From positions 1-23,519 of the IMG/VR virus record IMGVR_UViG_3300030107_005916: a stretch of 23,519 bases of DNA. One strand, written 5' to 3'. The notes under the pieces were generated by a model. It had not been told where the DNA came from. It saw only the letters and a list, made by a program, of their open reading frames with translations, and did not search any database. Below are positions 1,526-21,476 of this stretch, piece by piece. Positions within the stretch are counted from its first letter, which is position 1, and the number at the start of each line of letters is the position of its first letter. Position numbers and translations under genes: made by a program. This stretch comes from a virus.

Positions 1526-1966
1526 ATGGCGTTTAGTGACAAAGAAAAAGTAGAATTAAAGAAGAAATTTTTAAAGGCATTTGGTAAATCTAGAACAATA
1601 TCGAGTGCTGTTAGTGGGTTACCTGTAGGTAGGAACTCAATATATGAATGGTTCAAGGAAGATTCAGACTTTAAGCAGGAATTTGACGATGCAAAGCTAG
1701 CAGTTGGGGAAAGTTTAGAGAGTACAGCTTTTACTTTGATAGACAAGATGTTACAAAGTGGAGATTATTCTAGACCCTTACTGTTAATAACCATGTTAAA
1801 TGCCCACTTACCTGAAAGATATAAAGCAGGTGACAACACAGGTGATGATTCTAGACAACTTATTTCTGAATTTAGGAAGATGGCTAAGAGTAATAAGGAA
1901 AAAAAGCCTAAAACTAAAGTTGAAAAAGAAGCCGAGGACATAATTAATGACTCAACCACAAAATGA
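1526..1966 (+). CDS. terS: Terminase small subunit (putative)
   Basis: Probable small terminase, the DNA-recognition subunit that recruits the large subunit to the packaging site. Residues 22-46 look like a helix-turn-helix (SRTISSAVSG, then VGRNSIYEWFKED), as in phage small terminases that recognise DNA. The middle is helical, and the tail from about residue 115 is Lys/Glu-rich. At 146 aa it fits the family size. The start is supported by TAGGAGG 8-13 bases upstream. Its end overlaps the large terminase start by 20 bases, the usual terS-terL coupling. The call rests on position and the HTH region; sequence conservation of small terminases is low. Confidence 0.75.
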   Translation: MAFSDKEKVELKKKFLKAFGKSRTISSAVSGLPVGRNSIYEWFKEDSDFKQEFDDAKLAVGESLESTAFTLIDKMLQSGDYSRPLLLITMLNAHLPERYKAGDNTGDDSRQLISEFRKMAKSNKEKKPKTKVEKEAEDIINDSTTK

Positions 1967-3287
1967 ATTAACTGATTTCCTTTACGAGAAAGTAGGGTTT
2001 GAACCTACTGACGAGCAAAGGGTAATATTAGATTCAGATAAAAGGTTTACACTTGTAGCAGGTGGGGAACAAGCAGGAAAAAGCATGATCGCTAGTAAAT
2101 TTCTGCTTAGAAAGATATTTGAAACAGAAGAACCGGGGTTATATTGGCTAGTTGCTGCTGATTACGGCAGAACTAGGGCAGAATTTGAGTATTTAATAGA
2201 AGATTTTGCTAAATTAAACCTATTAAAGAAGGCATCTAAGAGAGTAGATCCGGGCAGAATAGAACTTGCTGATGGAACAGTTATTGAAACTAAGTCAGCT
2301 AAAGATCCTCGTACTCTAGCTATGAGAGCACCCAATGGAATTGTAGGTTGTGAGGCTAGTCAGTTAGATTTAGAAAGTTATTACAGAGTAAGAGGTAGAT
2401 GTGCACCTAGAAGTGCATGGTTATTTTTAGCAGGAACATTTGAAGGTAGCCTTGGTTGGTATCCTTCGTTGTTTCAGGCATGGAAATACGGAGATAAAGA
2501 CGAGAAATCTTTTTCCCTGCCCTCTTATACGAATAAACATTTATATCCGGGAGGCAAAAATGACCCTGAAATACAAAAGCTTAAAAATGAAGCTAGTGAT
2601 GATTTCTTTATGGAAAGGATTGAAGGTATTCCTTCTCCACCTACGGGAATCGTATTCCAAGAATTCAGAAGTGATAGACATATATCAGAAAAAGCTAGTT
2701 ATGTACCGAATGAACCCGTCCATTTGTGGATCGACCCGGGTTATGCAGGCGGCTATGCTATCGAGGCGATACAGATCAGCGATGATCAAGTTAGACTTAT
2801 CGACGAAGTCTACGAAAAGTCCCTCATTACAGAAGAAATGATTAACATTTGTCAGAATAGAGAGTGGTGGAGTGATGTACAATTTGGGGTAATTGATGTG
2901 GCAGGGTATCAGCATCAGGCTATGGCTGCTCCTGCAGAAGTTTGGTTAAATGAAACAGGCTTGTACCTTGATTCTCAGAAAGTTAAGATCAATGATGGTA
3001 CAGAAAAATTAAAATCTATGTTAAAATTAGCTCCAAACGGAGAACCTAGATTAATAATTAACCCACAATGTAAAGGGATCTTGTCAGAGTTTGGTGCAGC
3101 TCCAAATCCATTTAATGGACAGACACTTGTGTACAAGTGGAAAACAGATAGAGATGGAAATATAGTTGGCAATCAGCCTGAAGATAAGTATAATCATGGA
3201 ATAAAAGCCGTAATCTATGGTTTGATAAACCATTTTGGTTATGCACATATAGAAAATAGAACATCAATCCGTGTAAGGAGATGGTAA
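1947..3287 (+). CDS. terL: Terminase large subunit
   Basis: The ATPase-nuclease motor that pumps DNA into the prohead and cuts it. The N-terminal ATPase has Walker A GGEQAGKS (39-46), a Walker B-like strand with likely catalytic Glu (GIVGCEAS, 131-138) and a coupling-like segment LAGTFEG (161-167). The C-terminal RNase H-like nuclease shows the expected acids: D263 in LWIDPG, D317 in GVIDVAG, and D413 with H416 in DKYNHG. The length of 446 aa is normal. The start overlaps terS, with GAGGA upstream. The stretch encoding the beginning of the nuclease domain (about 2701-2820) is richer in G+C than its surroundings. Confidence 0.93.
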   Translation: MTQPQNELTDFLYEKVGFEPTDEQRVILDSDKRFTLVAGGEQAGKSMIASKFLLRKIFETEEPGLYWLVAADYGRTRAEFEYLIEDFAKLNLLKKASKRVDPGRIELADGTVIETKSAKDPRTLAMRAPNGIVGCEASQLDLESYYRVRGRCAPRSAWLFLAGTFEGSLGWYPSLFQAWKYGDKDEKSFSLPSYTNKHLYPGGKNDPEIQKLKNEASDDFFMERIEGIPSPPTGIVFQEFRSDRHISEKASYVPNEPVHLWIDPGYAGGYAIEAIQISDDQVRLIDEVYEKSLITEEMINICQNREWWSDVQFGVIDVAGYQHQAMAAPAEVWLNETGLYLDSQKVKINDGTEKLKSMLKLAPNGEPRLIINPQCKGILSEFGAAPNPFNGQTLVYKWKTDRDGNIVGNQPEDKYNHGIKAVIYGLINHFGYAHIENRTSIRVRRW

Positions 3288-5099
3288 ATGGCAAAAGCTA
3301 GTTATAAACCTGAAAGAATAATAGATAAAGTAGAGAGTCACTATGATGCTACTGAACCATTAAGAAACAGAATGGACAGAGATTTTTCTCTTTACAGATT
3401 AGATCCTTATGATGCAGGTGACGGTTACCAATCCTACACATCTAACGAACCTTCCACCTATGCAGATAAAATAATTTCCTTTGTTACAGGAAGTGAAATG
3501 GTAGCAAGGATTCCTAATGTTTCTGAAAAAGAAGAAGATAGGGAAAAGAACAATAAAAAAGAAAAATTCTTTCTAGGTATCTTAAAAAGTGCTGACGAAA
3601 GAATTAAACGACATTCTATGCCTTCGATTAAAAACCAACTAGCTTGGTATATTACATTAAGAGGTTGGTATGCAGGTAGGGCTTTACTTGTAAAAGATAA
3701 AGATGAAAATACTTATGTAGATATTACACCTTGGGATCCGATGCACACATATTGGGGACTTGGCAGCGAAGGGCTAGAGTGGGCTTGTTATAAAGTTAAA
3801 AAATCTAAAGACTTAGTTGAAAGCCAATACAATATCAGACTTCCAAGAAACGAAGATTATGATGACGAAGATTGGATAGATGTATATGATTATTACGATA
3901 AAGAAATGAACACAGTAGTTCTTTCTAACGGAAGAGTAGCTAAGAAACCTACTCCTCACGGAGCAGACGAGGTGCCTGTATTTTTGGGGCCTGTGGGGTC
4001 AGCTCCCATGATACAGGCTCTCAATGATATGACTCCTATTGATGACACGATTGCTGATTACGGAGAATCTATTTATAAACATAATAGAGAAAATTACGAA
4101 AAGAATAATCAGATAATGTCTATTATGCTAGAGTTAACTTCCCGTGCTAGAAGGCAAGGATTAAAAATTATATCAAGAGATGGTACAAAATCTCTTGATG
4201 AAGATCCATACAAAGAAGGTACAGAAATATCTTTGGCACAAGGAGAAGATATACAACCATTAGGATTAATGGAAGTAGCTAGAGAAACAGGATCCTTTAT
4301 GGGATTAATCTCAGGAGAGATGCAAAGAGGTGGAGTACCACATACTCTTTATGGAGATATACAATTTCAATTATCAGGATTTGCAATTAATACTTTAAGG
4401 CAAGGTATTGATTCCATTATATCTCCTAGAATAGAAGCACTTGAAAATGCTTATAAAAAAATATGTATGATAATATTTGATCAGTATATGTCTGAATCCT
4501 TTGACAGCATGGAGTTGTCAGGTCAGGATATGAACAGACAATACTTTAAAGAAAAAATAAGTCCTAAAGACATAAAAGGCACAGGTGATATTGAAATAAC
4601 ATTTGTAGGACAACTACCTCAAGATGATTTGACCAAGATGAATATGGCTCAAATAGCTAGAGATGGTGAAAGTCCATTGTTGCCTGATATATTTATTAGA
4701 GATAAAATTCTTGGATTACAAGATACAGATATGATAGATGATGCTATTAAAGAACAAACAGCAGAAAGGATATTACCTGAAGCTGCACTTTGGACTTTAC
4801 TACAATCAGCAGAAGATAGAGGCAGACCCGACCTTGCTCAGTTCTATTATGGTGAACTTATTACTATGATGAACGAAAAGCAAACAAAACGATTACAATC
4901 AGAACAACAGTTGCAACAAGCAGCTCAACCTCCACAGCCACAACAGCCTAGAGGTATGGATCCTAGAGTAATGCCTAATGCAATGGCAGGTGCACCTCCT
5001 CCACAACCTACACCTCCTCAAGGAATGGTAGCACCCGGAACTCCAAGACCCGGAGCAATGAGTGATGAAGAACGAATTAGAAGACAAGCACTAAGATAA
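3288..5099 (+). CDS. Portal protein
   Basis: Portal (head-tail connector), the dodecameric channel at the capsid vertex through which DNA enters and leaves. It directly follows terL (ATG right after the stop codon, AAGGAG upstream). The 603 aa length and the core are typical: an N-terminal segment with YRLDPYDAGDG-like sequence, a beta region around WDPMHTYWG (about 145-160), and a long helical middle and crown region. The last 65 residues (from about 538) are Gln/Pro/Gly-rich and probably disordered, like the compositional style of the next four proteins. The call rests on position, length and overall sequence character rather than a single signature motif. Confidence 0.87.
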   Translation: MAKASYKPERIIDKVESHYDATEPLRNRMDRDFSLYRLDPYDAGDGYQSYTSNEPSTYADKIISFVTGSEMVARIPNVSEKEEDREKNNKKEKFFLGILKSADERIKRHSMPSIKNQLAWYITLRGWYAGRALLVKDKDENTYVDITPWDPMHTYWGLGSEGLEWACYKVKKSKDLVESQYNIRLPRNEDYDDEDWIDVYDYYDKEMNTVVLSNGRVAKKPTPHGADEVPVFLGPVGSAPMIQALNDMTPIDDTIADYGESIYKHNRENYEKNNQIMSIMLELTSRARRQGLKIISRDGTKSLDEDPYKEGTEISLAQGEDIQPLGLMEVARETGSFMGLISGEMQRGGVPHTLYGDIQFQLSGFAINTLRQGIDSIISPRIEALENAYKKICMIIFDQYMSESFDSMELSGQDMNRQYFKEKISPKDIKGTGDIEITFVGQLPQDDLTKMNMAQIARDGESPLLPDIFIRDKILGLQDTDMIDDAIKEQTAERILPEAALWTLLQSAEDRGRPDLAQFYYGELITMMNEKQTKRLQSEQQLQQAAQPPQPQQPRGMDPRVMPNAMAGAPPPQPTPPQGMVAPGTPRPGAMSDEERIRRQALR

Positions 5100-5109
5100 A
5101 GGAAAAATA

Positions 5110-7536
5110 ATGTCAGATCCAACAAAATATTATGAAGCTCAATCATCAGGGGCAAAATATATAGTAGGAAATCGTGGAGAAAAACGATTTGGAGAATCTA
5201 TATATAACTTACCTGTAATTATTGAATTTCCAAAAGAAGCTACAGCAGAAGACAGATTTGATTGGTACAAAAGATATAACTTTTTTAGTACACAACCTTG
5301 GTCACGAGGAGATGCTCATGATGTAATGCAAAATGCAATAGATGAAGAATATAGAAAATCAGGAAAATGGGTTCGTAGAAATGTACTTGGAAAGTTTAAA
5401 TGGATAGCAAATAATGATGATTTTGATAATGCTATAAATTTTGCTCCAATTATTAAAATAACTGATTTTCAAGGAAACAACGAAGAGATAAGTTTTTCTT
5501 TTGAAAAAATTCCTGCCAATACTGTTTTAGGATTGAAATTGTCAACGGGTTCTTATGGAACAATGGGACAAGAAAATTATTTAACTCCATATGAAGAAGC
5601 AGATAAAACTACAGTTGCATCTAATAAACTAGCTGATTACAGTTCTATAACTGAACAAGCTCCTGATACTATTCAGGATCCAACCAAACCTGCTTATATT
5701 CCACCAACACCAACAGGTGGAATGGGACAAACACCTGCTCCTTCTATTGCAGAAACTGAAGGAGTTACAGAAAGAAGAGCTTTTGGTGGAAGTTATGTAG
5801 ATCCTGACACAGGAAAATTAGTTACAATAGATACTCCTACAAGTCAGTATGATCAATTAAGAAGAACAGAATTGGGAGTGCCTGAATTTGAATCAATGCA
5901 AGCTTTTAAAGAACAAAGTAAAGATCTTGTAAAATCATTTTTGCAAGCTCCTACAGATCAGGGTGGATATAATTTTAAAGGCCTAGATGATGGCAAAGTA
6001 GAATTTGATTTTGAAATGGACGAAAACGGCATAATTACTAAATTAGATGTTTTTGAAGTTGTAAATGGAAAAAGAAATCCTAAACCTGCTTTAACATTAA
6101 CTGATCCAACTGAAACAAATAATAAATTTAATGAATATAAACGATATAGGTTAACACAAGATCCTACAGACCCAACATTACAACCTCCTAATGTTACAGG
6201 TAAAACTGCTACAGGATTTGGAGCTATTGGAACAACGGGTGCAGGAATAGGATCATTTCCTTTAGGTCAAAGTTTAATGGCACCCGGAGTTCCTATGCCC
6301 GGAAGTTTGCAACAACAAGCATTGTCAAGAGTTCCTTTATCTGATTATAGAAGAGCATTACCTGCAGCAATGCCGGGTGGTGGTATTCCTTTAATGAGAG
6401 GATTGTACAAAACTCCATTACAATTAGCACAAGAAGCATATTTATTATCTAGCAGAATGGGAACATTCCAACCACAAGGAACAATTCCGGGTGGTACAGG
6501 AGCATTTGGATTCCAACAATATTTAGGCGGACAACCTAATTACATTGCAGATTTACAAGCAGGTCTTGGAGCTATTCAACAAGTAAAACAAAAAATAATT
6601 AGTGGAATTTCACCTGCTCAGTTAACTCCTGCAGAACAACAAATATATACTAACTATATTGGAGGAACAGAAAGCAATCCTTATCAAGGAAGCGAAAACG
6701 AACTTGCTTTAAGACAGCAATTAACACAACTTTTACCTGCACCTTTAAGAACTGCAGCTCAATCTAATTTGCAAAATATATACAATCAAGCATTAGCAAC
6801 TAGACCTAGCACAGTAGCAGGTATGCCGCAATCATTAATGTATGGTGGGGCTTTAGGAACAGGATCTCCTTTCCAAAGTATGCAACCAATGAGTGTAAAT
6901 GTACCAACAGGAACTTCTCCTGTAGGTACTATGGGACAAGCAAGTCAAGCACCTACTCAAACAATTAATGTTACAGGTAGTACTAATATGAATAATGTTA
7001 TGACTAATAACAATCAAGCACAAACACAAACACAAACAGCAGATGGTAAAAGTATTATATTTAACAGAAATCCTGACACAGGATATATGCAAGCAACTTT
7101 AAATGAAGGAAGAGCAGGTGCAACAGGAGCAGGAGCAGCAACTGCTGCAGAAATAGATGCTCTTGGGCTTGGTTTGCCTACAACTCCAACAGGAGGAGCT
7201 TTTGGAAATATTATGGTTAAGAGATTAAATGATAAAGTAATAGATGCTTGGACTATAGGTGCAGATGGTAAAAGAACTCCATTAATGCAAAATCTTACCA
7301 ACTCTAAAGAAGCTAATGATCAAATAAAAGCACAGCAAATAAAAATAGCTAATGAAAAAGCAGAAGCAGAAGCTAAAAAAATAATGACAGGATCTCAAAA
7401 AGCACAGTTAGGAATGGAAGCACCTCCTACCGTACCCGGAATGAATGCACCAATTCAACCTTATACTTCTGTTCCTTTTCCTAGAGATATTACAGACCCT
7501 AATTTTAATGTAAATGAAAACATATTTAATTTTTAA
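5110..7536 (+). CDS. Large Gly/Pro/Gln-rich virion-associated protein (unknown)
   Basis: Not recognised (808 aa). Residues 1-150 look folded, with Trp/Tyr-rich stretches (DRFDWYKRYNFFSTQPW near 58-75). Then follow low-complexity linkers rich in Pro, Gly and Thr (about 190-215), a Pro/Gly/Met-rich section (380-430), and a helical Gln-rich middle. A QTQTQT run lies near 637-642, and a charged, probably coiled-coil helix spans about 730-770. There is no signal peptide. AAGGA lies upstream, 10 bases after the portal stop. The portal-scaffold interval suggests a minor head or internal (ejected) protein, but that is inference from position. Confidence 0.75.
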   Translation: MSDPTKYYEAQSSGAKYIVGNRGEKRFGESIYNLPVIIEFPKEATAEDRFDWYKRYNFFSTQPWSRGDAHDVMQNAIDEEYRKSGKWVRRNVLGKFKWIANNDDFDNAINFAPIIKITDFQGNNEEISFSFEKIPANTVLGLKLSTGSYGTMGQENYLTPYEEADKTTVASNKLADYSSITEQAPDTIQDPTKPAYIPPTPTGGMGQTPAPSIAETEGVTERRAFGGSYVDPDTGKLVTIDTPTSQYDQLRRTELGVPEFESMQAFKEQSKDLVKSFLQAPTDQGGYNFKGLDDGKVEFDFEMDENGIITKLDVFEVVNGKRNPKPALTLTDPTETNNKFNEYKRYRLTQDPTDPTLQPPNVTGKTATGFGAIGTTGAGIGSFPLGQSLMAPGVPMPGSLQQQALSRVPLSDYRRALPAAMPGGGIPLMRGLYKTPLQLAQEAYLLSSRMGTFQPQGTIPGGTGAFGFQQYLGGQPNYIADLQAGLGAIQQVKQKIISGISPAQLTPAEQQIYTNYIGGTESNPYQGSENELALRQQLTQLLPAPLRTAAQSNLQNIYNQALATRPSTVAGMPQSLMYGGALGTGSPFQSMQPMSVNVPTGTSPVGTMGQASQAPTQTINVTGSTNMNNVMTNNNQAQTQTQTADGKSIIFNRNPDTGYMQATLNEGRAGATGAGAATAAEIDALGLGLPTTPTGGAFGNIMVKRLNDKVIDAWTIGADGKRTPLMQNLTNSKEANDQIKAQQIKIANEKAEAEAKKIMTGSQKAQLGMEAPPTVPGMNAPIQPYTSVPFPRDITDPNFNVNENIFNF

Positions 7537-7548
7537 AGAGAGCATAAT

Positions 7549-8451
7549 ATGACAATGATGAATGGAAGACTAGATGACAGAATGATGGAGGGAAATCCTG
7601 CTGATTTTTTTGCAGAAACTATAAATCCAAATACAGGGGTAATAGATAATACAATGCCACCTATGACAGGGGTAATAAATAATACAATGCGATCTATACC
7701 ACCTATGCAACCTGCAGGAGAAATGCTACAAGAAAGAATGGCTGATAGACAAGCAGGGCCTTTAATGCCCGGTGGTACTTTTACAGGAAGCTTTATGGAA
7801 GATCCTTATAATTTGTTTAATGTACCACTTACAAATAAGTTTATTGGATTGGATCCCGTTAATGCACCAAAAGTAGGGTTACCAAGTGGAGCAGGAACTT
7901 ATAATGGAATGAGTCCTGATTACATGTCTGCTCAGTTAAACTTTCCTAGTTTAGCTTCAGCATCTGATATGCAAGATATAACAAGAAGAGGAGGAAGTCC
8001 TGTATCAGATTTTACAAGAACTACAACAATGGGAACAGGGTATCAACCTCCTGTAAATGAACCTATACAAAGAGTAGGGACTCCTATAGGAAGTATGGGA
8101 ATACAAAATCAACCTATGGTAGCACCTGTAGTAGACCCTGTCGTAGCTCCTGTATTTGACCCTTCTTCGTTTGCTAATACTTTATTACCACCTGCAAATG
8201 AAGAGATGTTGTATGGTAACAGACAAGATTGGACAGGGCCTTTAGTTGATCCTTTTATGAGTCCATGGACATTAGGAGCTTGGAATCCTTCAAAAAATCC
8301 CGGACTCTATAATTTATCTCACCCTAATTGGAATGATGCTTCTAGGTATTTAGCTCAGCAAAGATTAAATGACCTAATAAATGCAGGAACTTTTGCACTT
8401 AATCCTATACATTATTTAACAAATAATTTATTTGATCGATTTATTAGATAG
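7549..8451 (+). CDS. Met/Pro/Asn-rich protein of unknown function
   Basis: Not recognised (300 aa). It is very rich in Met, Pro, Gly and Asn and probably mostly disordered. Near the N-terminus is a short duplicated unit, TGVIDNTMPPM then TGVINNTM, encoded by an imperfect 24-base direct repeat at 7633-7656 and 7666-7689. The C-terminal 90 residues look more folded (WTGPLVDPFMSPWTLGAW and following). AAAGAGAG lies upstream. It sits 12 bases after the preceding gene and 9 before the next, so it belongs to the same transcript. It is probably a minor virion protein with its neighbours. Confidence 0.72.
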   Translation: MTMMNGRLDDRMMEGNPADFFAETINPNTGVIDNTMPPMTGVINNTMRSIPPMQPAGEMLQERMADRQAGPLMPGGTFTGSFMEDPYNLFNVPLTNKFIGLDPVNAPKVGLPSGAGTYNGMSPDYMSAQLNFPSLASASDMQDITRRGGSPVSDFTRTTTMGTGYQPPVNEPIQRVGTPIGSMGIQNQPMVAPVVDPVVAPVFDPSSFANTLLPPANEEMLYGNRQDWTGPLVDPFMSPWTLGAWNPSKNPGLYNLSHPNWNDASRYLAQQRLNDLINAGTFALNPIHYLTNNLFDRFIR

Positions 8452-8460
8452 GAAGATAAT

Positions 8461-9075
8461 ATGGTAAGAAGATATACTTTAGCAGGAAAAGCTATAGATT
8501 ATACAGATGAAGAAATAGAAGCATTTAATAATCCTTACGGAGGATATACAGTTGGAGGTGGAACAAATCCTTTGACAGGAATAGATGCTTTAACTTATTC
8601 TAGTCCTCCTGTTACGGGATATAAAATGCAACCCGGATTTACAGCAGGAAGAGGAGATATGGGGTATAATATTCCTTCTGCACAACAGGGAGTAAGTACT
8701 TATAATGTTGGGCAAGATTTATCTACCAATATGGCTAATCCTTTTTCAGATTATTTACCACAAGAATTTTTAGAAACGACACCTACTGCAGCATATTACA
8801 GCTCACCTGCAGCAGCAGATTTTTACACAAGACCATCAGGACAAATAGATCCTACAAAGAAAAAGTTTTACCAACAATCTTTTCAAGAAATATATAATGA
8901 ATATCTTGGGAAATTAGGAAGTATGGCTAGGGAAGGAGAAACTCCTGATTTAAGATTTACAGATTATTTATCACAAGCAGAACCTTTTAAAGAGAGATTT
9001 GAAAGACAAACTCCTTATCAAAGAGGAATAAGTAACAGAGCATTTGCTCCGTCAACTAGGTTTATATACTATTAA
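8461..9075 (+). CDS. Hypothetical Tyr/Gly-rich protein, 204 aa
   Basis: Not recognised. It is rich in Tyr, Gly, Pro and Ser through residue 130 (for example GGYTVGGGTNPLTG and YYSSPAAADFY), followed by a more regular, charged helical end (about 135-190). GGAAG lies upstream of the ATG. Its stop codon overlaps the start of the 1819-codon gene in a TAATG junction, so the two are probably translationally coupled. It shares the disorder-prone composition of the two genes before it, which suggests a common job in the virion. Confidence 0.72.
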   Translation: MVRRYTLAGKAIDYTDEEIEAFNNPYGGYTVGGGTNPLTGIDALTYSSPPVTGYKMQPGFTAGRGDMGYNIPSAQQGVSTYNVGQDLSTNMANPFSDYLPQEFLETTPTAAYYSSPAAADFYTRPSGQIDPTKKKFYQQSFQEIYNEYLGKLGSMAREGETPDLRFTDYLSQAEPFKERFERQTPYQRGISNRAFAPSTRFIYY

Positions 9076-12000
9076 TGAACAATTATAATATACAAGGAAG
9101 TAGATATGTTCCACCTCCTTCGCCAACTTTAAGTGTAGAACAAATTCCTAGAAATGTAGGACAAGGAATTGCAGGAACAAAATACACTCCTCCTCAACAA
9201 AATTTATTACCACCACCACCACCACCACAAGGTATTCCTGACGACAGAAATTTTTGGCTGACTCCTATGATATCTAAAGAAGCAGTAGCAGGTGCTCCTA
9301 GTTGGATAAGACCTGTAGCAGAATTTGCAACTCAATTAACTACACCATTAGATGTAGCTATAACTTTAGGAACAGCAGGATTGGGGCCTTTGATAGCAGG
9401 AGGAAGAGCAGGTGCTATGGGAATACGAGGTGGATTAAGAGGATTGGCTGCGGCAGAAGGAAGAGGCAGGGCAGCAAACTTAGCTTTAAGAGGAGCTGCT
9501 AATATAGTAGAACCCGCATTTATGGCTAGAGGAGCATTGCCTGCAAGATTAATTTCTGAAACAGGAGTAACTGCAGGAGGACATTTTTTAGCAGAAAAAG
9601 GACATGAAGCAGGAGGAATACCCGGCATGATAGTCGGTGCATTAGGTGGAGGAATTGCAGGAGGAGCAATAGGAGTAGGAGTAGTAAAAGGTATGGGTAA
9701 AGCAGCTAAAACTACACCCGGTCTTAGAACATTTTTTGCTGATCCTTTTAGTGATCCTATTAATCCTAAAGTAAAAACAATAGATCCTGAAAGCCCAACA
9801 GAGCTTACTGTATCTGAAGATCCTGCTTTAAATGAAGATATAGAAAAAGTAACTCAAATTTTTTATGATGATAACGGAATACATTATAGCGATGCTCATA
9901 AAATGGGCGAAGCATTTCCTATGACAGAAAAAAATGAAACTGCTGAATCAATACTAGGACAAAAAGCTTGGCAAACATTGCCTACAGCTCTTAAAAATAG
10001 TTTGCATAAAGTACAAAGATTATGGAATCCACAAAAACATTTAAAAAATCCCATTGAAAAATTAAAACTTATTCACACTATGGGAATGGCAATGGTTGAT
10101 CAAGAAGCTTATAAATTAAAAGGTTATATAAGAACTGAAGAATTTGATGACATTTTTGGAGAAACACAACTTGATGTAACAAAAGCTAATCGTGGAATGT
10201 TTAAGTTTAGAGATGATGATGGAAATATTATAAAAGACCACCCGTTGTTTACAGAAGAAAATCTTAAAAAAATGAAAGAGCTTGGAATAGATCCTGAAAA
10301 TTTAAGTGCCACTAGAATTTTTGATGAAGTTAATCCTTTAATAAACAGAGATATTACAGGAGTAGATTATGGATTAAAATCACCTCCTCCTAAATCTGAA
10401 ACAGGATTTTTAGATCCTACAATAAATCAAATAAAAAACGTAGAATTACAAAGAGAAATTTACGCAGGTAGAGAAAGATGGGGAATTTGGGACGACATAC
10501 TAAATGAAGAACAAAAAAAATATATTATAAGAAGAGCTAAAGCTTTTGATTATACTAACAACAGATTAATAGATCAGGGAATAGATACAACTAATAGAGG
10601 AAAAGAAATAGCAAGAGCAAGAGATAATGATTTAACAGATATAATAGAGTATACTCCTGAAGAATTAGAAGATATAGCAAAAGCTTCACTCGATGCAAAA
10701 GAACTAACACCTGATGATTACAATAAATTTCAAACAGATTTAAGAAGTGAACAAGGTTATTCTGCAAGATCTTTATGGACTAAGCAAGTTAAACATGGCG
10801 AAGCAGGAGAAGTTGATGTTGTAATTGTTGGAAAAGATCCTAATTTTGGATATAAGGTAAATGGAAAAGCAGGGTCTGAATACAGCAGAAAATTTTCTAG
10901 AGTTAGATTATCTGAATTAGAAGGATATACTTACAAGCCTGCAAACGAAGTTGTCTTTGAGCAACTTCGAGCTAGATTAAGAAGAGCTTATAATGCAAAC
11001 TTTGATGATTATAAAATTAAGTTTTTAGGTGGACAAAAATATGTAGATGATACAGGAGAAATATTAACAGAAGAATCTATTTTCGGCCCCTTTGTTACAA
11101 AAGAAACTAGACGAAGAAGAGCAATAAAAATTTTATTTAGAGAATACGGTCCCAAGAAATTACCTAAAGGCGAGGCTTATGATCCTAAATATTTAGAAGA
11201 ATTAATTAATAAATACGAAGCAGGCGAAAAAGTTGCAATGCCTTACCCGATAGCTAACAGAAACGAATTAAGAAGCCTTATAAGAGAAGCTAATACATTG
11301 AAAGAAAAAATGATAGCAATACAAAAAAGTAAGTTTAAAGAAGTAAACTTTACACAAGACGAAGTAGATATGTTAAAAGCATGGGTAGAAAGTACAGGCA
11401 ATTCTGCATTAGATGTTACTAAATTTATATCAGATCCTACAGGAGATAATATAATTGATTCTTTAGCTAAAGTAAAAATGAAAGAAGGCGGTAGTGTTGT
11501 TGCAAGGGTATTCAAATCATTACCAAATTTTGCAAAAGATTTTACAGGAATAGGAATGCAACAAGCAAGAATAGAAGCACAATTTGCTGTTGTGTTAGCT
11601 CACGCAAGAAGAATTATGGGAGTAGATTATGTAAATCAATATCCTATATTAAAGCCATTATTAGATGGTAATACAAAAAATTATAATTTTCCTGCAGCTA
11701 AAAAATACTTGCAACAACGAATACAAGAATATATAAAAGATGTTAATGATAATACATATAAAGAATTAACAATTTTAAGAAATCAATTAGATCAGTTAGA
11801 AAAAATTGCAACAACTCTTGATCCTGAAGACATTCCTTCAATAGCTGCAATAGAAGAAGAAATAACTGCATTGTCTGCAAACATAGTTAAAAGACAAAAT
11901 CTTTTAGAAGTATGGAGAAAAGCAGGCAGACCTAAAAATCTTAACTTTGATCAAGGTCAAGATTATATAAAAGGTATGAGCTATGGTATCAATGGTTGGA

Positions 12001-14534
12001 ATCCTACAGGAGAAGGCTACACTACAGGAGAAGCTGTTTTAGATAGTGTGTTTCAATTGCAAAAAGATTTAGAAGTCCCTACTGCACCTGCCATAGATGT
12101 AGATGAATTAAAGTTTGTAGAAGAATTAATTGATGATGCTAAAGAATATAATTACAACTATGATATGACACCAAAAGATTTAGATAATTTTATAAAAGCA
12201 TTAGATAATACTTCAAAAGGATTTAAAAATGATATAAAAGGATATCAAGAAATCATTGACAATGTAATGAAAAGAGAAGTCAAGAAAGAAAATATGCAAG
12301 AAATATTAATAAAAACTAATACAGATTTTATTAATCTTTTAAGTAGAAGTATTGATCCTATTGACAGAAAAGATCTTATTAATTTAAGAGGATTAGAGCC
12401 TGATGAATTTGGAGAATATAATTTAGAAAAAATATATTTTAATACTACTAAAGAACAAATGATAACCGAAGGTATTCCTGTGGGGCCTAATGAAGAAGAT
12501 GTATTTTTAATATTAAAAGACAATATAATTGTAGATGATACAGGTGGAAGCATGGCTAGGCCTCATGGAGTTTATGATGAAGTTATAAAGACAGTTCAAG
12601 CATTAGACGAAATGGTTAGAGTATCTAATATTGAAGGAATACAAAAATGGTGGTTACAAGCAAACTCTATGCAAAGAATGGTGGCTTTAGGTATTGATGC
12701 AAGTGTTATTAATATTCATTTGCTTCCTATGTGGTTTAACCACCCTGCTGTTCAAGCAACTAATGTTAGAGAATTTTGGAAGACTTTGTTAACAACTTTT
12801 AAAGATCAAAAACAAGGATCAATTTTAGTACAAAATTATAAAAATACAGAAGAGTTTTTAGATTGGCTAAACAAATATCCTGAATTATTAACATCTGAAA
12901 GTAACGAGGTATTCCAAGTTGCAGCACAAGTAGGGTGGCCAAAAGCTTTTGAAAAATTAGGAAAGCCTTTTGAGTTAGCCTTTGGAAGAGTTTTAGATGT
13001 AGCAGGAATTGAACTTGTTAAAGCTTTAGATTATTTAGTTGATCCTTCTTTGTCTGCTGCAGAGCAAGCAGCTAGAAGGTCAGTTATTGCTCAGTATGTA
13101 AATGATATGAGAGGATTATATGATGCAGGACTAAAAGGAATATCACCTAAACAAGCTAATATAGAATCTTCATTTATGCTTGCAGGTAGATACAGAAGAG
13201 CTATATTTGGCATATGGGCAAAAGCTTTTACAGGTACTGCTTTTGAAAGATACATGGCACAAAAAGCTTTGATAAATCTTTTTACAGGATTAGCTATGAC
13301 AACTATGGCTTTACAAATAGCTAACTCTGCTATTGGAGGAGATGATCCTGAAGAAGCAGGACAGAAAATAATTGATATGTTAGATCCCACATCAGGTAGT
13401 TTTTTGTTATTTAGCCAAAATGATCAAAAGTTGGGGCCGGGATCTAAGTTTGTATCAGATGCAAGAATACTTGCTAAAGCAATGAATTTCTTTTACAAAT
13501 CAGGAACTCAAGAAGATATGGAAGATTGGGAAAACTTTCTTTCTTTAAGTGAAAACAATCCGGGTATTAGATGGGTACGAGCACAAATGGCTTACAGTCC
13601 ATCAACTGCTTGGGATTTCTTTACAGGAACAAATTATATTGGAGAACCACAATTTAGAGAAGGTGAAAACTCTTTAGAAACAATAGGTAACTTTGTATCT
13701 CCATTTACTGAAATGGTTACTCCTTTATGGATTAACTCTACATTTTTCGAAAACACTCAAGGAAATTTAGAGTGGTCAGACAGGGTAAGAGGGTCAGGAA
13801 CTAGGTTTGTTTCAGAGTTTACAGGACTTAGAGCACACCCTCAAGGAGCATCAGGAATATTAAAAGAAGCTTCTTGGGATATTATGAATGCCCCTTATGA
13901 TAATTTAGAACCTTTTGAAAAAGATATTTTAAGGTATTCTATTATGGATCAATTAAGTCCATTGCAAGAACAAACAATTAAAAGAGGAACAAATGATTTT
14001 GCAGTTTACTTTAGCGATATTGAAAGAATAGAAAAAAACTTTCAAAACGAATTAATTGAAATGACTAAGCTATATCCTAATACTGCCGAAGGAAATAGAA
14101 ATATGTATGACAGATACAGGCAATTAAAAAGCTATATAAGAGGTCAAAAATTTGAAGTAGGTTATGATGTTGAGTTTGATGAAATTGATGATCAAGTAAC
14201 TGATCCAAAAAAAATAGCTTTAAATAAATATTTTAAAATGTTTGATACAGTTAAAATTCCCGGTACTCAATTAATAGATTGGGAAAAATGGGAAACAGAA
14301 TATGATACTTTAATGAAATCATTAACATTAGAACAACAAGCTGTTATAGCAAGAAATACTTCTAGGCTTCCTATACCTTATGTATTTTTAGAAAGATTAA
14401 AATATCTTGGAGAGGCTAAAGAATATAAAAGAATTATGAAAGCACAACAATTAAGAGAAATTTATTTAGAATCATTAGAAAGACCTGATTTAGCATCTAA
14501 ATCAAGAGATCTTTATTTGATGTTAGAGGATTGA
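9075..14534 (+). CDS. Giant internal virion/DNA-ejection-type protein, 1819 aa
   Basis: By far the largest gene here. After a Pro-rich N-terminus (six Pro at 46-51), residues about 75-210 are Gly/Ala-rich with amphipathic or hydrophobic segments, including a glycine-zipper-like stretch (GALGGGIAGGAIGVG, about 188-202) that could insert in a membrane. Residues about 230-1150 are charged and largely helical. The last third (about 1160-1819) has more aromatic, possibly membrane-active segments, for example around LINLFTGLAMTTMALQIANS (about 1400-1420). No lysozyme or transglycosylase motif was seen. Very large proteins encoded near the portal are often internal proteins ejected with DNA or large polyvalent proteins; the C-terminal part faintly resembles the latter. 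It starts at a TAATG overlap with no good ribosome site, suggesting coupled translation. Confidence 0.75.
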   Translation: MNNYNIQGSRYVPPPSPTLSVEQIPRNVGQGIAGTKYTPPQQNLLPPPPPPQGIPDDRNFWLTPMISKEAVAGAPSWIRPVAEFATQLTTPLDVAITLGTAGLGPLIAGGRAGAMGIRGGLRGLAAAEGRGRAANLALRGAANIVEPAFMARGALPARLISETGVTAGGHFLAEKGHEAGGIPGMIVGALGGGIAGGAIGVGVVKGMGKAAKTTPGLRTFFADPFSDPINPKVKTIDPESPTELTVSEDPALNEDIEKVTQIFYDDNGIHYSDAHKMGEAFPMTEKNETAESILGQKAWQTLPTALKNSLHKVQRLWNPQKHLKNPIEKLKLIHTMGMAMVDQEAYKLKGYIRTEEFDDIFGETQLDVTKANRGMFKFRDDDGNIIKDHPLFTEENLKKMKELGIDPENLSATRIFDEVNPLINRDITGVDYGLKSPPPKSETGFLDPTINQIKNVELQREIYAGRERWGIWDDILNEEQKKYIIRRAKAFDYTNNRLIDQGIDTTNRGKEIARARDNDLTDIIEYTPEELEDIAKASLDAKELTPDDYNKFQTDLRSEQGYSARSLWTKQVKHGEAGEVDVVIVGKDPNFGYKVNGKAGSEYSRKFSRVRLSELEGYTYKPANEVVFEQLRARLRRAYNANFDDYKIKFLGGQKYVDDTGEILTEESIFGPFVTKETRRRRAIKILFREYGPKKLPKGEAYDPKYLEELINKYEAGEKVAMPYPIANRNELRSLIREANTLKEKMIAIQKSKFKEVNFTQDEVDMLKAWVESTGNSALDVTKFISDPTGDNIIDSLAKVKMKEGGSVVARVFKSLPNFAKDFTGIGMQQARIEAQFAVVLAHARRIMGVDYVNQYPILKPLLDGNTKNYNFPAAKKYLQQRIQEYIKDVNDNTYKELTILRNQLDQLEKIATTLDPEDIPSIAAIEEEITALSANIVKRQNLLEVWRKAGRPKNLNFDQGQDYIKGMSYGINGWNPTGEGYTTGEAVLDSVFQLQKDLEVPTAPAIDVDELKFVEELIDDAKEYNYNYDMTPKDLDNFIKALDNTSKGFKNDIKGYQEIIDNVMKREVKKENMQEILIKTNTDFINLLSRSIDPIDRKDLINLRGLEPDEFGEYNLEKIYFNTTKEQMITEGIPVGPNEEDVFLILKDNIIVDDTGGSMARPHGVYDEVIKTVQALDEMVRVSNIEGIQKWWLQANSMQRMVALGIDASVINIHLLPMWFNHPAVQATNVREFWKTLLTTFKDQKQGSILVQNYKNTEEFLDWLNKYPELLTSESNEVFQVAAQVGWPKAFEKLGKPFELAFGRVLDVAGIELVKALDYLVDPSLSAAEQAARRSVIAQYVNDMRGLYDAGLKGISPKQANIESSFMLAGRYRRAIFGIWAKAFTGTAFERYMAQKALINLFTGLAMTTMALQIANSAIGGDDPEEAGQKIIDMLDPTSGSFLLFSQNDQKLGPGSKFVSDARILAKAMNFFYKSGTQEDMEDWENFLSLSENNPGIRWVRAQMAYSPSTAWDFFTGTNYIGEPQFREGENSLETIGNFVSPFTEMVTPLWINSTFFENTQGNLEWSDRVRGSGTRFVSEFTGLRAHPQGASGILKEASWDIMNAPYDNLEPFEKDILRYSIMDQLSPLQEQTIKRGTNDFAVYFSDIERIEKNFQNELIEMTKLYPNTAEGNRNMYDRYRQLKSYIRGQKFEVGYDVEFDEIDDQVTDPKKIALNKYFKMFDTVKIPGTQLIDWEKWETEYDTLMKSLTLEQQAVIARNTSRLPIPYVFLERLKYLGEAKEYKRIMKAQQLREIYLESLERPDLASKSRDLYLMLED

Positions 14535-14575: not shown

Positions 14576-15334
14576 ATGGTAAACGAAAATGAAAATATAC
14601 AACCTGAATTAAATATGGTATCTGAAGAGAGTACAGCTCCTGTAGCTGAACCTCAAGCAGAGCCTACAGTAGAACCTGCAACAGAACCTGTGGCAGAACC
14701 ACAAGCAAATCCTGCACCATCTACTGAAACTAATTCTACTACAGAAACTACAGCACCTAAAGCTGAAGAAAATGTAGGGACTTATCCTAGTTCTGTTCAG
14801 CCTGATAATGATGTGCAACAAACACTTCAGCAAACACAACAAAGATTACAACAAGTAGAACAACAAAACTTGCAAAATCAAATGTTGTACGAAACTGAAA
14901 ATTATAAACAACAGTTAGCACAACAAGGATATAGTAATGAACAGATACAATATGCTGCTGATACTTATTATCAAAACAGAGTGCAACAAGCACAAGTAGA
15001 GCAGAATTATAAAAAAGGATTAGAATTTAGAGAAGGTCAATTTAAGGCATCTTTACAATTTGGTAAAAAATACAATGTAGATCCTGAAGTACTATTAAAG
15101 TACCAAACACCTCAAGAAATGGAAACTGCAGCAAAGCATATGTCTGAAGTCAGAGCATTAAAAGAAGAAAATGCTAGACTAAAGCAAGGCAAAGTTCCTA
15201 CACAGAACTTTGACAACAATACTGCTCCTGCAGAAGCCACGACAAGTGAGGAAAGATTATTGGATCTTTACAACTCAGGAGTTCGCAATCCTGAAACCGA
15301 AGCAGCAGCTCGAAGGGCTGCAGGCATCGGATAA
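14576..15334 (+). CDS. Capsid scaffolding-like protein
   Basis: Probably the scaffold that guides assembly of the prohead and then leaves it. It lies immediately upstream of the major capsid gene, the standard place. Residues about 15-50 are an acidic Glu/Pro/Ala repeat (AEPQAEPTVEP-like). Residues about 80-145 are a Gln-rich coiled coil (QQTQQRLQQVEQQNLQ), and a second helix lies near 185-205 (ALKEENARLKQG). The composition is acidic, polar, helical and Cys-free, as in scaffold proteins; its length (252 aa) also fits. ATAAGGAGG precedes the ATG. The 41-base AT-rich gap before it shows no terminator. Confidence 0.8.
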   Translation: MVNENENIQPELNMVSEESTAPVAEPQAEPTVEPATEPVAEPQANPAPSTETNSTTETTAPKAEENVGTYPSSVQPDNDVQQTLQQTQQRLQQVEQQNLQNQMLYETENYKQQLAQQGYSNEQIQYAADTYYQNRVQQAQVEQNYKKGLEFREGQFKASLQFGKKYNVDPEVLLKYQTPQEMETAAKHMSEVRALKEENARLKQGKVPTQNFDNNTAPAEATTSEERLLDLYNSGVRNPETEAAARRAAGIG

Positions 15335-15363: not shown

Positions 15364-16239
15364 ATGGCACAGACAGCGACAACCGGAAATCTAGAAAATG
15401 CGAGTAAGATAATTATCGCAGCAGCTAGATACACGGAAGAACACAACGCACCTGCTATGGCATTAATTGAGCAATTTAACCTACCTAAAGGAGCTAAACA
15501 GGTAACTGTTCCTAAAGTAGGACAAATGCAAGTTGATGACTTAACAGATGGTGTTGACATCGTTGACGATCAAGAAATTGGCATGACAACTGTTGACTTA
15601 ACAGCAGCAGAAGTTGGAGCTAAAGTTATCTTAACTGATAAACTTGTTCGTGAACAACAAAACAATGTATTCACTATAATTGGTAAACAATTAGGTGATG
15701 CAATGGCAAGAAAGAAAGATACAGATGTTCATTCATTGTATGGTTCTTTAAATGGTGGTACCACTCTTGGTGCTGCAGCAGCAAGCATGAAAGCAAGTAA
15801 CATACAGGGAGCAATCACTTATGCAAAAGCTAATAAATTTGGTAGTCAAATTTACATTTTACATCACCCTAACTCAGTAGCTTATCTTTCTAAAGAAGCT
15901 GCAACAGTTGCTTCATCAGGTTCAGCAGAACTATCAAGTGGTTGGTCTGCAGATCTATTGAAAGACTTTTGGAGTGGACTAAGACCTATGAATGGTGTAT
16001 CAATATTTGAAGATGGTAACTTATCAGTTGACTCTTCAGATGATGCAACAGGTGTTATTGCTGACAAGTCAGCTATGGCAGTTCTTAAGTCTGTAGACAC
16101 TAGAACAGAGAGGCAGAGAGATGCAAGTTTGAGAGCCACAGAAGTGGTTATTACTTCAGACTATGGTGTCTTTGAGTTAGATGATACTAGAGGTGCAGGA
16201 CTTATATTTGATGCTGCAGCTTTAGCAACTAATAACTAA
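15364..16239 (+). CDS. Major capsid protein, HK97 fold
   Basis: Forms the icosahedral shell. The 291-aa length, the N-terminal helix (KIIIAAARYTEEHNAP), the beta-rich E-loop/P-domain region (about 45-95, with VTVPKVGQ and VGAKVILTDKLV) and the HK97-type segment YILHHPN (164-170) support the call. The A-domain end with VVITSDYGVFELD (261-273) is also as expected. It has a very strong ribosome site, AAGGAGGTCG, consistent with the most abundant virion protein. It is about 30 bases after the scaffold gene. No protease gene precedes it, so prohead processing, if any, is not encoded nearby. Confidence 0.92.
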   Translation: MAQTATTGNLENASKIIIAAARYTEEHNAPAMALIEQFNLPKGAKQVTVPKVGQMQVDDLTDGVDIVDDQEIGMTTVDLTAAEVGAKVILTDKLVREQQNNVFTIIGKQLGDAMARKKDTDVHSLYGSLNGGTTLGAAAASMKASNIQGAITYAKANKFGSQIYILHHPNSVAYLSKEAATVASSGSAELSSGWSADLLKDFWSGLRPMNGVSIFEDGNLSVDSSDDATGVIADKSAMAVLKSVDTRTERQRDASLRATEVVITSDYGVFELDDTRGAGLIFDAAALATNN

Positions 16240-18334: not shown

Positions 18335-18336
18335 AC

Positions 18337-19605
18337 ATGGCAATAACACATGGCAAAACATTAGAAGATTTAAGAAAAGCAATAGGTAGAAACCTAGGTA
18401 AAATGATTACCGGTACTACATCAGGTAGTGGTTCTACTACTACTGCGTTAGATACTACATTGTTTGGTGGAGATGACGAATATATAGGAAGTTATATAAG
18501 ATTTACTTCAGGTACTTATGATGGTACTACTAGAAGAATAACAGATTATACAGCATCTACAGGTACAATAACATTTGCAGCAGTAGCAGGTACTATTGCA
18601 GGTAGTGTGACTTACGAAATATGGAAAGACGGATTTGATCCTGTTGTTATAGATGAGTTTATTAATCAATCTATACTAGCTATTACAGGAAAAATATATG
18701 ATCCCGTAGAAAACCTTGATATACACACAGACAAAGTAAATGCTAGGTGGGAAATACCTAGTGGTATAGAGATGATACAAGATGTTTTTTACAGAGATAA
18801 ATTTACTTCTGAAGTTTTGCACGATTGCAATTCTGCATTTGATGAATCGGTAGATTCTGATTTTACTATAACAGCAGACACAGAAGATTACAAAACAGGA
18901 TCTGCTTCTAATAAAATTGTAATTGCAGCAGGTGCTTCAGCAGGAGATACTGCTTCAGATACCATCACTTCAGTCAACATATCTAAATATGATTACATAG
19001 AATTTTGGATTAAATCTTCAGTAGCTACAAGTGCAGGTAATTTAAAAATACATTTAGTAGATGCAGGTGGTATAGAAGAATCATTAGATGTACCTGCTTT
19101 AACAGCTAATGTATGGAAATATTGCAGAGTAGCATTGGTTGCTCCTTATGATAATACAGCTATTACACAGGTAAGATTTGAATACGATTCTGATTTAGGA
19201 GCTTGTGTGGTTCATTTAGATGATATTAAAGTAGTAAAAAATGATACAGCAACATGGGAAAAACTTGCTAGAAACACATGGAGAATAGATAAAGAAGGTA
19301 CTTTACAGGGAGCTAGTACTGCTGACTTAGTATTGTCAGATAGAGGCAGAGCATTAGCTTCTTATAGATTAATCAAACTAACAGGTGGTGACAAACCTAC
19401 TGAGTTAAGTTCAGATTCTAGTACTACAGAAGTTCCCGAAGATTATATTATTTCCTATGCTACAGCTTTGGCAGCACAGGCAGGATCTGTAAGACCTGAT
19501 ATTGATATTGATGGAATGAGAAATCTTGCAGCATTTTGGTTTGCCAAATCAGAACAAGCTAGAAACAATATGCCATTTTTATCAAATGTCAGGACAGTTA
19601 GGTAA
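18337..19605 (+). CDS. Head-tail connector-like structural protein with carbohydrate-binding-like domain
   Basis: A 422-aa virion protein of a type common in marine phage contigs. Residues 25-97 form a small beta domain (YIGSYIRFTSGTYDG, TRRITDYTASTGTITF). Residues 100-150 contain a helix (VVIDEFINQSILAITG) and a strand. Residues about 160-301 look like an inserted jelly-roll of carbohydrate-binding-module type: YDYIEFWIKSS, LKIHLVDAGG, VWKYCRVAL and VVHLDDIKVV are the characteristic strands. Residues 302-422 return to a helical end (YIISYATALAAQAG, LAAFWFAKSEQARN) as in connectors and adaptors. Start supported by GAAGGTAGAC. The connector role is inferred from position before the propeller protein. 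Confidence 0.72.
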   Translation: MAITHGKTLEDLRKAIGRNLGKMITGTTSGSGSTTTALDTTLFGGDDEYIGSYIRFTSGTYDGTTRRITDYTASTGTITFAAVAGTIAGSVTYEIWKDGFDPVVIDEFINQSILAITGKIYDPVENLDIHTDKVNARWEIPSGIEMIQDVFYRDKFTSEVLHDCNSAFDESVDSDFTITADTEDYKTGSASNKIVIAAGASAGDTASDTITSVNISKYDYIEFWIKSSVATSAGNLKIHLVDAGGIEESLDVPALTANVWKYCRVALVAPYDNTAITQVRFEYDSDLGACVVHLDDIKVVKNDTATWEKLARNTWRIDKEGTLQGASTADLVLSDRGRALASYRLIKLTGGDKPTELSSDSSTTEVPEDYIISYATALAAQAGSVRPDIDIDGMRNLAAFWFAKSEQARNNMPFLSNVRTVR

Positions 19606-21476
19606 TGGCCAATAAAGTTATAAAGAAAAATGAGGTTTACCTTAATGGAAATTATTATCCAATAACTAGACCCGTGCAGCAGGTGTTAGCCTCCATCTAT
19701 CCTGCAAAGGTTACTATTGGTGATACCACTCGTGATTCACAAGCTAGAACAAGTGTAATATCTTGGGCTGATTTCAGGGGTGGTATAGGTGTAGAGAGAA
19801 TGGAAGGAGCTACAGATGTAGATCGTTCTTGGTTCAGTACCTGTAGCCTTCGCTACAAAAGGCACCTAGTATTACCTGCCAAAACTAATTCTGTAAGTAA
19901 CTCAGATGCTACAGGAGAATCCTTAGATATACTACAAGAATTTGATGGGGCACTATATGGTATATGGTCAAATCAAAAAGTATATAAATATAATTCAGGA
20001 TCAGACACATTTACTTCTGCGTTAGATACATTGCCTGCAGTAGCAACAGATGCTTTAGAAGTAAGAATGGGAGGCACATTATACCTAGTTATAGCTCACA
20101 CAGGAGGATATACTTACACATCTAATGGCACAGATTTTACTGACGACACTACAGATACAAAGTTTCTTGCTTGGTGGGACGAAAAACTATGGGGAATAGA
20201 TAATACAGGACAACTTTGGTACTCAACTACTATAGGAACTGAGGCAAATGATGCTAAGTTACCATTGCCTGATGGCCATGTAACTGATTTATTTGTAGCT
20301 AGAAATGCTAGTGGTGATCCTATTTTATATGCTATGACTAAAGAAGGATTGTTTGCACATGATTTTGCAAACGGAAGATTTGTAGAAACACAACTAGCTT
20401 TACCATTTCACAATGACAATGGTAAAGGTTCTGTTAGATGGAGAGATTCTGTATACATACCTGCAGGATTAAGTATATATAAATATATTAATGGTAGTAA
20501 CTCTGCCGTTGTAACAGTAGTGGGGCCTGACAGAGATGATGGATTACCTTCTGATTACAGAGGTAAGATATCTAAGCTTATAGGAACTCACAATGATTTA
20601 ATTGCAATGGTAGATGGGACTTTAACTCCCGGAACTGTAGATTTATTTGCTTCAGGAGAATCTCCTGTAATAGACGCAAGTACAGGTTACAGTACAATAT
20701 TAGGGTATAACGAAGTTGGTTGGGAAGTTAGGTGGTCAGCAGCAGGAACTGATAGAGGTAAAAAAATAACAGCAGGATTTGTATCTGATGTAGGTGGAAC
20801 TTTAACAGCAACTAATCCTTATAGAATGTATTGGGGATTTGATGGAAAACTATATTACCAACAACTACAATCAGATGTTATTAACCCAACACAAGTAACA
20901 AATTACAGGTACGAAGATAGCGTAGATGGCATACATTACACTCCATGGTTTAGTGCAGATCAAGTTGAAGTAGACAAATTAGCATTAAAACTTAAAGCAG
21001 AAACAGCAGATTGTAACTCTAATCAAACTGTAAAAATAGAATATGCTTTAGATTATGTTGAAAGTTATACTACTATGGGAACAATCACTTCAAATGGAAT
21101 AACAACTTATACTTTTGGAAGTAATATAGGAACAACATTTAGATCAATACAATTTAAAATAACTCTTGCCACTAATACTATAGCAGCTTCTCCTGATTTA
21201 ATTAGTTTAACTTTAGAGTATAGAAAAAAATTAGATACAAAATTTGGTTGGTCTGTAAATATAGATTTAAACAAAGGATATAAAGGATCAACTTCTAAAT
21301 CTATGAGAGCTAATATATTATCTGCTATACAAAGCAATACTTTATTAGAGTTTACTTACAGAGATGACTCTTCTACTAACAGAAACTACTATGTTGACAT
21401 AACGAATGCACAAGGATTAGAAGAAACAGCGTATGACGAAAGAGGAACAACTCAATTATTATTAACGGAGCCGTGA
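19605..21476 (+). CDS. Beta-propeller tail protein (nozzle-like)
   Basis: A 623-aa structural protein. Residues about 105-350 contain about six repeats of roughly 40-45 residues that read as propeller blades, for example FDGALYGIWSNQKVYKY, GGTLYLVIAHTGGYTYTS, WDEKLWGIDNTGQLWYS, YAMTKEGLFAHDF and WRDSVYIPAGLSIYKY. The C-terminal part (about 370-623) is beta-rich and ends in a segment with YRDDSSTNRNYYVDI. Propeller-containing nozzle proteins close the short tail of podoviruses such as T7, and I infer a similar place here. It begins at a TAATG overlap with the preceding gene and ends in a TGATG overlap with the next. Confidence 0.72.
   Translation: MANKVIKKNEVYLNGNYYPITRPVQQVLASIYPAKVTIGDTTRDSQARTSVISWADFRGGIGVERMEGATDVDRSWFSTCSLRYKRHLVLPAKTNSVSNSDATGESLDILQEFDGALYGIWSNQKVYKYNSGSDTFTSALDTLPAVATDALEVRMGGTLYLVIAHTGGYTYTSNGTDFTDDTTDTKFLAWWDEKLWGIDNTGQLWYSTTIGTEANDAKLPLPDGHVTDLFVARNASGDPILYAMTKEGLFAHDFANGRFVETQLALPFHNDNGKGSVRWRDSVYIPAGLSIYKYINGSNSAVVTVVGPDRDDGLPSDYRGKISKLIGTHNDLIAMVDGTLTPGTVDLFASGESPVIDASTGYSTILGYNEVGWEVRWSAAGTDRGKKITAGFVSDVGGTLTATNPYRMYWGFDGKLYYQQLQSDVINPTQVTNYRYEDSVDGIHYTPWFSADQVEVDKLALKLKAETADCNSNQTVKIEYALDYVESYTTMGTITSNGITTYTFGSNIGTTFRSIQFKITLATNTIAASPDLISLTLEYRKKLDTKFGWSVNIDLNKGYKGSTSKSMRANILSAIQSNTLLEFTYRDDSSTNRNYYVDITNAQGLEETAYDERGTTQLLLTEP

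Follow-up and report, generated by a model that had tools for sequence, protein, structure and literature searches.

Putative DNA-ejection proteins of a podovirus encoded by a cysteine-free, allele-swapping gene block between portal and scaffold

A podovirus with a nozzle-type tail normally needs internal proteins that are ejected, and the operons encoding them follow a pattern of small, medium and giant products (PMC8954989). In phage P22, gp16 and gp20 show high diversity, complete sets are exchangeable and the ability to escape exclusion by SieA has been mapped to gp16/gp20 (PMC10883804). The metaviromic islands of marine phages carry mainly host-recognition genes, with three internal virion proteins listed without explanation (PMC3909814), while LPD38 is a domain known from polyvalent proteins of phages, for which injection has been inferred (PMC5512222). 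The DNA analysed here, referred to as the window, is an entire IMG/VR viral record of 23,519 bases (IMGVR_UViG_3300030107_005916). Between its presumed portal and scaffold genes lie four genes, designated gA, gB, gC and gD, which are intact, near-contiguous and on the same strand (5110-14534; 3131 codons in total). Their products are probably internal-virion (DNA-ejection) proteins of a podovirus, a reading based on the combination of a P22-type nozzle, the lack of a tape measure, cysteine-free composition, rapid mosaic divergence and a small/medium/giant set of proteins. The block is most likely a highly diverged, module-swapped version of podovirus ejection systems. The original prediction, made without database searches, had suggested that the products may form an internal core or ejection machine of an undescribed type; the ejection machine is now the best-supported putative reading, and the novelty holds for sequence and gene position, whereas the function looks like that of a diverged known system.

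The first gene, gA (5110..7536, plus strand; 808 amino acids), is rich in proline, glycine and glutamine, contains no cysteine and is the most variable gene of the block; it encodes the putative medium-sized ejection protein, and by size could be an analogue of gp15/gp20. The product of gB (7549..8451, plus strand; 300 amino acids) is an optional accessory member, and its gene contains a short tandem repeat of two 33-bp units (7633-7697). The small conserved component is gC (8461..9075, plus strand; 204 amino acids), the last ~110 residues of which form the best-conserved domain of the block and end in the motif FAPxTRFIYY. The stop codon of gC shares one base with the start of gD (TAATG), which encodes the putative giant ejection protein (9075..14534, plus strand; 1819 amino acids). 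The proline-rich N-terminus of gD (9075..9260, plus strand) is hypervariable, having 72-82% DNA identity to the related locus L001 in a background of ~98%, and the same is seen between L002 and G001. Hydropathy and composition reveal a glycine-rich segment at residues ~181-199 and a hydrophobic one at ~1398-1416. Proline, glycine, glutamine and methionine together make up 27.7% of gA, 31.3% of gB and 25.5% of gC, compared with 19.1% of gD and 12-25% of the flanking gene products. The predicted four intact open reading frames (ORFs) without family match, the fourth of 1819 amino acids, were recovered at the same coordinates and codon count, and the bias of the first three towards these residues was upheld, whereas the conserved domain of gC means that this protein is not merely disordered. 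No Pfam or PHROG match was found for any block protein of the window. A search of 50,697 phage records returned no relative of gD and only chance-level matches to gC, and gD has no sequence match in the PDB; across the family, PDB and profile searches no confident match to a known non-structural enzyme arose.

Relatives were drawn from viral contigs (204 for the portal and 560 for the capsid), and all relatives compared are metagenomic contigs; 27 fetched loci hold both a portal and a capsid gene, a few contigs having been fetched twice. The order portal-gA-(gB)-gC-giant gD-scaffold-major capsid protein (MCP) recurs in these relatives, and the portal-to-capsid interval spans 7.5-10.9 kb in all 27. 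In the loci examined, gA is usually 400-1020 amino acids long, rich in the same three residues and sometimes split, gC is 104-204 amino acids, and the gD counterparts, whether orthologous or positional, are 1455-2185 amino acids, with one of 3045 (G006). About two thirds of the loci lack gB as a separate gene, and the one-base overlap of gC and gD is present in 17 of 23. An alignment of 45 distinct gC sequences reveals a common domain with the terminal motif F-A/S-P-x-T-R-F-I-Y-Y. Because orthologous blocks occur in the 27 loci and the ratio of nonsynonymous to synonymous divergence (dN/dS) between like alleles is mostly about 0.1-0.45, indicating mostly purifying selection, the block consists of real genes. 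Two loci have an extra ORF without family match between gC and gD (L001:2488-3339, 283 amino acids; L016:6574-7473, 300 amino acids or more). The gD proteins are themselves mosaic: type A, the large group to which that of the window is related, can be distinguished from a second type (G004, G005, L150 and L057-L059), the C-terminal half of which is unrelated to type A in profile comparison. The counterparts in L057 and L165 (orthologous or positional) contain an LPD38 domain, which may count in favour of ejection. Such a domain had also been suspected in the gD of the window on account of a motif, but neither a Pfam scan nor hhalign comparison to the LPD38-bearing type confirmed it.

The most striking property of the block is allele swapping between near-identical phages. 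Between the window and L002, the terminase small (TerS) and large (TerL) subunits are 100% identical and the portal 99%, while scaffold, MCP, g257, the tail genes and the part of the fibre that is present are 96-100% identical; by contrast, identity is 32% for gA, 60% for gB, 59% for gC and 44% for gD. Immediately after the portal stop codon, DNA identity drops from 97% to ~50% or below, and it climbs back from ~76% to 97% where gD meets the scaffold gene; the divergence breaks coincide with gene junctions. Synonymous divergence (dS) is 0.03-0.12 in the flanks, as against 0.98, 0.40, 0.49 and 0.89 in gA to gD respectively. This elevation implies replacement by long-separated alleles, rather than fast protein change alone; positive selection by itself, considered for the window, L002 and G001, was ruled out as synonymous divergence in the block is raised too, while pairs with more diverged flanks, such as L057-L059, do not discriminate between replacement and positive selection. 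Among phages with 99% identical portals, gA alleles are only 32-34% identical (dS 0.75-0.98), and the fibre stays 100% identical while the block genes differ. L002 and G001 share gC and gD (dS 0.01 and 0.08) and differ in gA and gB (dS 0.86 and 1.41), hence parts of the block exchange separately. Similarly, L001 combines gC and gD of the window type (95% and 98%) with a different gB (31%) and the 283-amino-acid insertion, and the closest full-length match to the gA of G001 is found in G003, whose portal is ~92% identical to those of the group, not in L002, whose portal is 100% identical. At the amino acid level the pattern is repeated in the pairs L018-L043 and L028-L035, whose flanks likewise carry synonymous divergence. 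Separate samples repeatedly yielded one and the same combination of allele and flank (L007/L015/L017, L014/L016 and L020/L021), and the gA allele of the window is found again in L011. The block is thus a divergent island inside a near-identical genome, as metaviromic islands are defined.

A second feature common to these proteins is the absence of cysteine. There is none among the 3131 residues of the window's block, nor among the 79,073 residues of gA to gD and the extra ORFs in 28 loci, despite gA and gD alleles often being only 20-30% identical, whereas at the same loci 222 cysteines occur in the 52,717 residues of TerL, portal, scaffold, MCP, g257, g422 and nozzle (0.42%). As these sequences are related, the tests are not independent. 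In a small, author-chosen control panel (P22, T7, N4, SP6, phiKMV and P-SSP7; L214-L219), all annotated ejection proteins of more than 400 amino acids are cysteine-free, including the 3500-amino-acid virion RNA polymerase (vRNAP) of N4, and the whole ejection set has 6 cysteines in 15,197 residues, compared with 136 in the 18,338 residues of virion and packaging proteins outside that set. Tape-measure proteins also exit via the tail, and the three included (in L166-L168) have no cysteine. Across 165 viral loci, some from contigs fetched twice, plus-strand ORFs of 700 amino acids or more number 128, of which 122 are cysteine-free and the six exceptions all have fibre-like beginnings. It is possible that cysteine exclusion is a general signature of phage proteins passing through a channel. 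No statement of such a signature was found in the literature searched, which does not in itself prove novelty. Cysteine-free composition may offer a simple alignment-free screen for ejection proteins where homology fails.

The type of phage is indicated by g623 (19605..21476, plus strand), a P22-gp10-type nozzle. Its AlphaFold model (mean predicted local distance difference test score, pLDDT, 76) is a beta-propeller, the first five PDB fold matches of which are podovirus tail complexes (Pa223, P22 gp10 and Sf6 gp8; E-values 2e-12 to 6e-11), and the fold matches in a viral library include many annotated P22 gp10 proteins. No tape-measure gene was found in the longer relatives (~37-47 kb), in which gA/gD and the fibre are the only late proteins of more than 700 amino acids, and no tail-tube or assembly-chaperone genes were recognised. 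The block is the only obvious ejection-protein candidate of suitable size. The fibre is followed in relatives by a protein of 290-450 amino acids with N-terminal hydrophobic segments, a repetitive C-terminal part looking beta-solenoid-like and no Pfam match (in their own coordinates, G006 39517-40821, G004 32645-33727 and G005 27074-27949).

These observations can be accommodated by a mechanism in which the four proteins would be packed near the portal while the procapsid is assembled and later exit in extended form via portal and P22-type nozzle. Cysteines may be a liability for extended proteins in an oxidising space. Having left the virion, they would assemble a conduit across the cell envelope. 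The giant protein could be the membrane part that reaches the cytoplasmic membrane, by means of its glycine-rich N-terminal and hydrophobic C-terminal segments, and might include effector regions; gA, together with gB where present, would form the variable component of the conduit, and gC, as the best-conserved member, would attach the set to a constant part of the virion. Ejected proteins would meet the host envelope and superinfection-exclusion or defence proteins, and this may be why modules of the block are replaced by recombination while capsid, nozzle and fibre remain constant. Variation of the block at a constant fibre would therefore point to selection after adsorption, and the putative ejection block may be a main battleground with the host. 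It is a more tentative suggestion that, in this phage family, host interaction diversifies by module swapping mainly in the ejection machinery instead of in the receptor-binding fibre, and that exclusion of cysteine marks proteins leaving through portal and tail in general.

Several observations weigh against assigning the block to ejection. No similarity was found by hhalign between gA, gC or gD and the ejection proteins of P22 and T7, although the same method also missed the match between the nozzle and gp10. Residues 620-1819 of gD are modelled as mainly alpha-helical at low confidence (pLDDT 56), with no credible fold match. Unlike T7 gp14, gC has no transmembrane helix, and the hydrophobic segments of gD are modest, the C-terminal one being confined to the window and near relatives and absent in several others. 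The ejection genes of P22 and T7 come after the nozzle gene, whereas the block precedes the scaffold, and two Chloroflexota chromosomes have gA and gC without gD. The scaffold and MCP are also nearly cysteine-free, hence the signature is not specific to ejection. Lastly, the post-fibre protein could be an additional ejection or membrane part, or a lysis protein, and as such is a second candidate.

Of the other explanations, the one that survives best, while still being rather unlikely, is that gD is chiefly an injected, multidomain polyvalent effector acting against host defences, with gA to gC helping in its packaging or delivery and the conduit formed by something else. The length of gD (1455-3045 amino acids) is as would be expected of such a protein, and allele swapping is consistent with an arms race; yet no enzymatic or protease domain was identified in any gD scanned, and the type present in the window lacks LPD38. 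The two ideas are only partly exclusive, as N4 vRNAP is both ejected and enzymatic. It is more doubtful that the four proteins are assembly or internal-core factors, such as minor scaffolds, involved in portal incorporation and capsid building and not ejected. The position of the genes between portal and scaffold, the lack of cysteine in the scaffold too and the adjacency of gA and gC to the portal in the two gD-less Chloroflexota chromosomes would all suit this role. However, a factor touching only conserved parts should not diverge to 20-44% identity beside portal, scaffold and MCP genes that are 96-100% identical, and a nozzle-type podovirus would be left without obvious ejection proteins. 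That gD is the tape measure of a long-tailed phage is very improbable, for although it is long, mainly helical in the low-confidence model and cysteine-free like the three tape measures, the phage has a P22-type nozzle and no recognised tail-tube or chaperone genes, and gD lies between portal and scaffold. Equally improbable is that the extreme differences between blocks are chimeras of metagenome assembly, which is rejected, even though every sequence is a metagenomic contig, because alleles recur with the same flank in independent samples, and the ORFs are intact, the breaks fall at gene junctions and further pairs such as L018-L043 and L028-L035 have the same pattern.

Among 84,980 species genomes, relatives of the capsid protein were detected at only eight loci, in metagenome-assembled genomes (MAGs) of Chloroflexota or Dehalococcoidia, with 50-58% identity. 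This suggests that the phage family may infect Chloroflexota. If the hosts are indeed Chloroflexota (Dehalococcoidia-like), a multi-protein ejection set would be present in a phage whose host possibly has a single membrane. In two of these genomes (G014 and G015), MCP, scaffold, TerL, tail genes, portal, a short gA-like gene and gC are dispersed across roughly 20-30 kb within contigs 161 and 253 kb long; portal, the gA-like gene and gC lie ~20 kb from the TerL-to-g623 homologue set. No gD was found in these portal-gA-gC genomes by a search that recovers the gD-like gene of G147, a genome of the same class as G014. This gene, in a 12.5-kb contig (L210, G147:C29), is a cysteine-free ORF of 1943 amino acids that precedes genes for a scaffold-like protein and a capsid protein (MCP 30% identical). 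Chloroflexota MAG contigs (L185-L189, L208 and L209) contain intact, syntenic homologues of TerL, scaffold, MCP, g422 and g623 among cellular genes, a set which looks like a domesticated phage or a gene-transfer-agent-like element.

The remaining genes of the window follow the plus-strand order TerS, TerL, portal, gA to gD, scaffold, MCP, head and tail genes, nozzle, a nuclease-like gene and fibre. TerS (1526..1966, plus strand) matches PHROG 4044 (E-value 2.7e-7), TerL (1947..3287, plus strand) matches PHROG 2 (2.3e-18) and the MCP (15364..16239, plus strand) matches PF25209 (9.7e-9). The portal, the conserved left flank of the block (3288..5099, plus strand; 98.8% identical in L002), was labelled by its position between TerL and gA and its size; it has no significant family, PDB or profile match, and attempts to establish its identity through sequence gave only hints, in the form of weak local resemblance to annotated portals. 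The scaffold, the conserved right flank (14576..15334, plus strand), was labelled by size, composition and position before the MCP, and its N-terminus is encoded by a tandem repeat of ~24 bp in 2.7 copies (14644-14707; AEPxAEPx). A second variable gene, g257 (16727-17500), falls into one class mostly 63-100% identical to that of the window and another at 30-39%, differing also beside conserved neighbours (36% between the window and G003, where MCP is 94% identical). Another short variable stretch relative to L002 is found at 18237-18337, in an otherwise near-identical right part. The nuclease-like gene (21473-21880), which occupies the interval between nozzle and fibre in most relatives, has a weak match to an HNH endonuclease PHROG (E-value 0.003).

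Of the described systems, P22 gp7/gp20/gp16 are similar to the block in combining small conserved with larger, highly diverse members, in undergoing mosaic exchange beside conserved capsid and tail genes and in having no cysteine, and the nozzle of the window phage is of the P22 type. However, there is no sequence similarity, the P22 genes follow the nozzle instead of lying between portal and scaffold, and the length of gD is 2-5 times that of gp16. T7 gp14/gp15/gp16 form a comparable small, medium and giant set, of which gp15 and gp16 are cysteine-free, but again there is no sequence match, gC has no transmembrane helices and gene order and location differ; no lytic transglycosylase domain was found. 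The SAR11 phages HTVC111P and HTVC026P have MCPs 28-30% identical to that of the window and, in the interval from portal to scaffold, one or two genes annotated as hypothetical, yet these genes encode cysteine and both phages carry tape-measure genes; a gC profile found nothing among their small genes. The LPD38 polyvalent proteins (PMC5512222) resemble gD as giant products of the late region, with LPD38 itself present in two relatives' counterparts, whereas the gD of the window has neither this nor any recognised effector domain. Metaviromic islands of marine phages (PMC3909814) are likewise variable within near-identical genomes, but there host-recognition genes predominate, whereas in the contigs compared here the variable island consists of the putative ejection genes, beside a fibre that does not vary. 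With fibre, nozzle and capsid near-identical while putative ejection genes are replaced module by module, the window represents a sharp form of the marine-island pattern, and the family allows a direct test of whether phage diversification is driven by a step after adsorption, such as passage of the envelope or superinfection exclusion.
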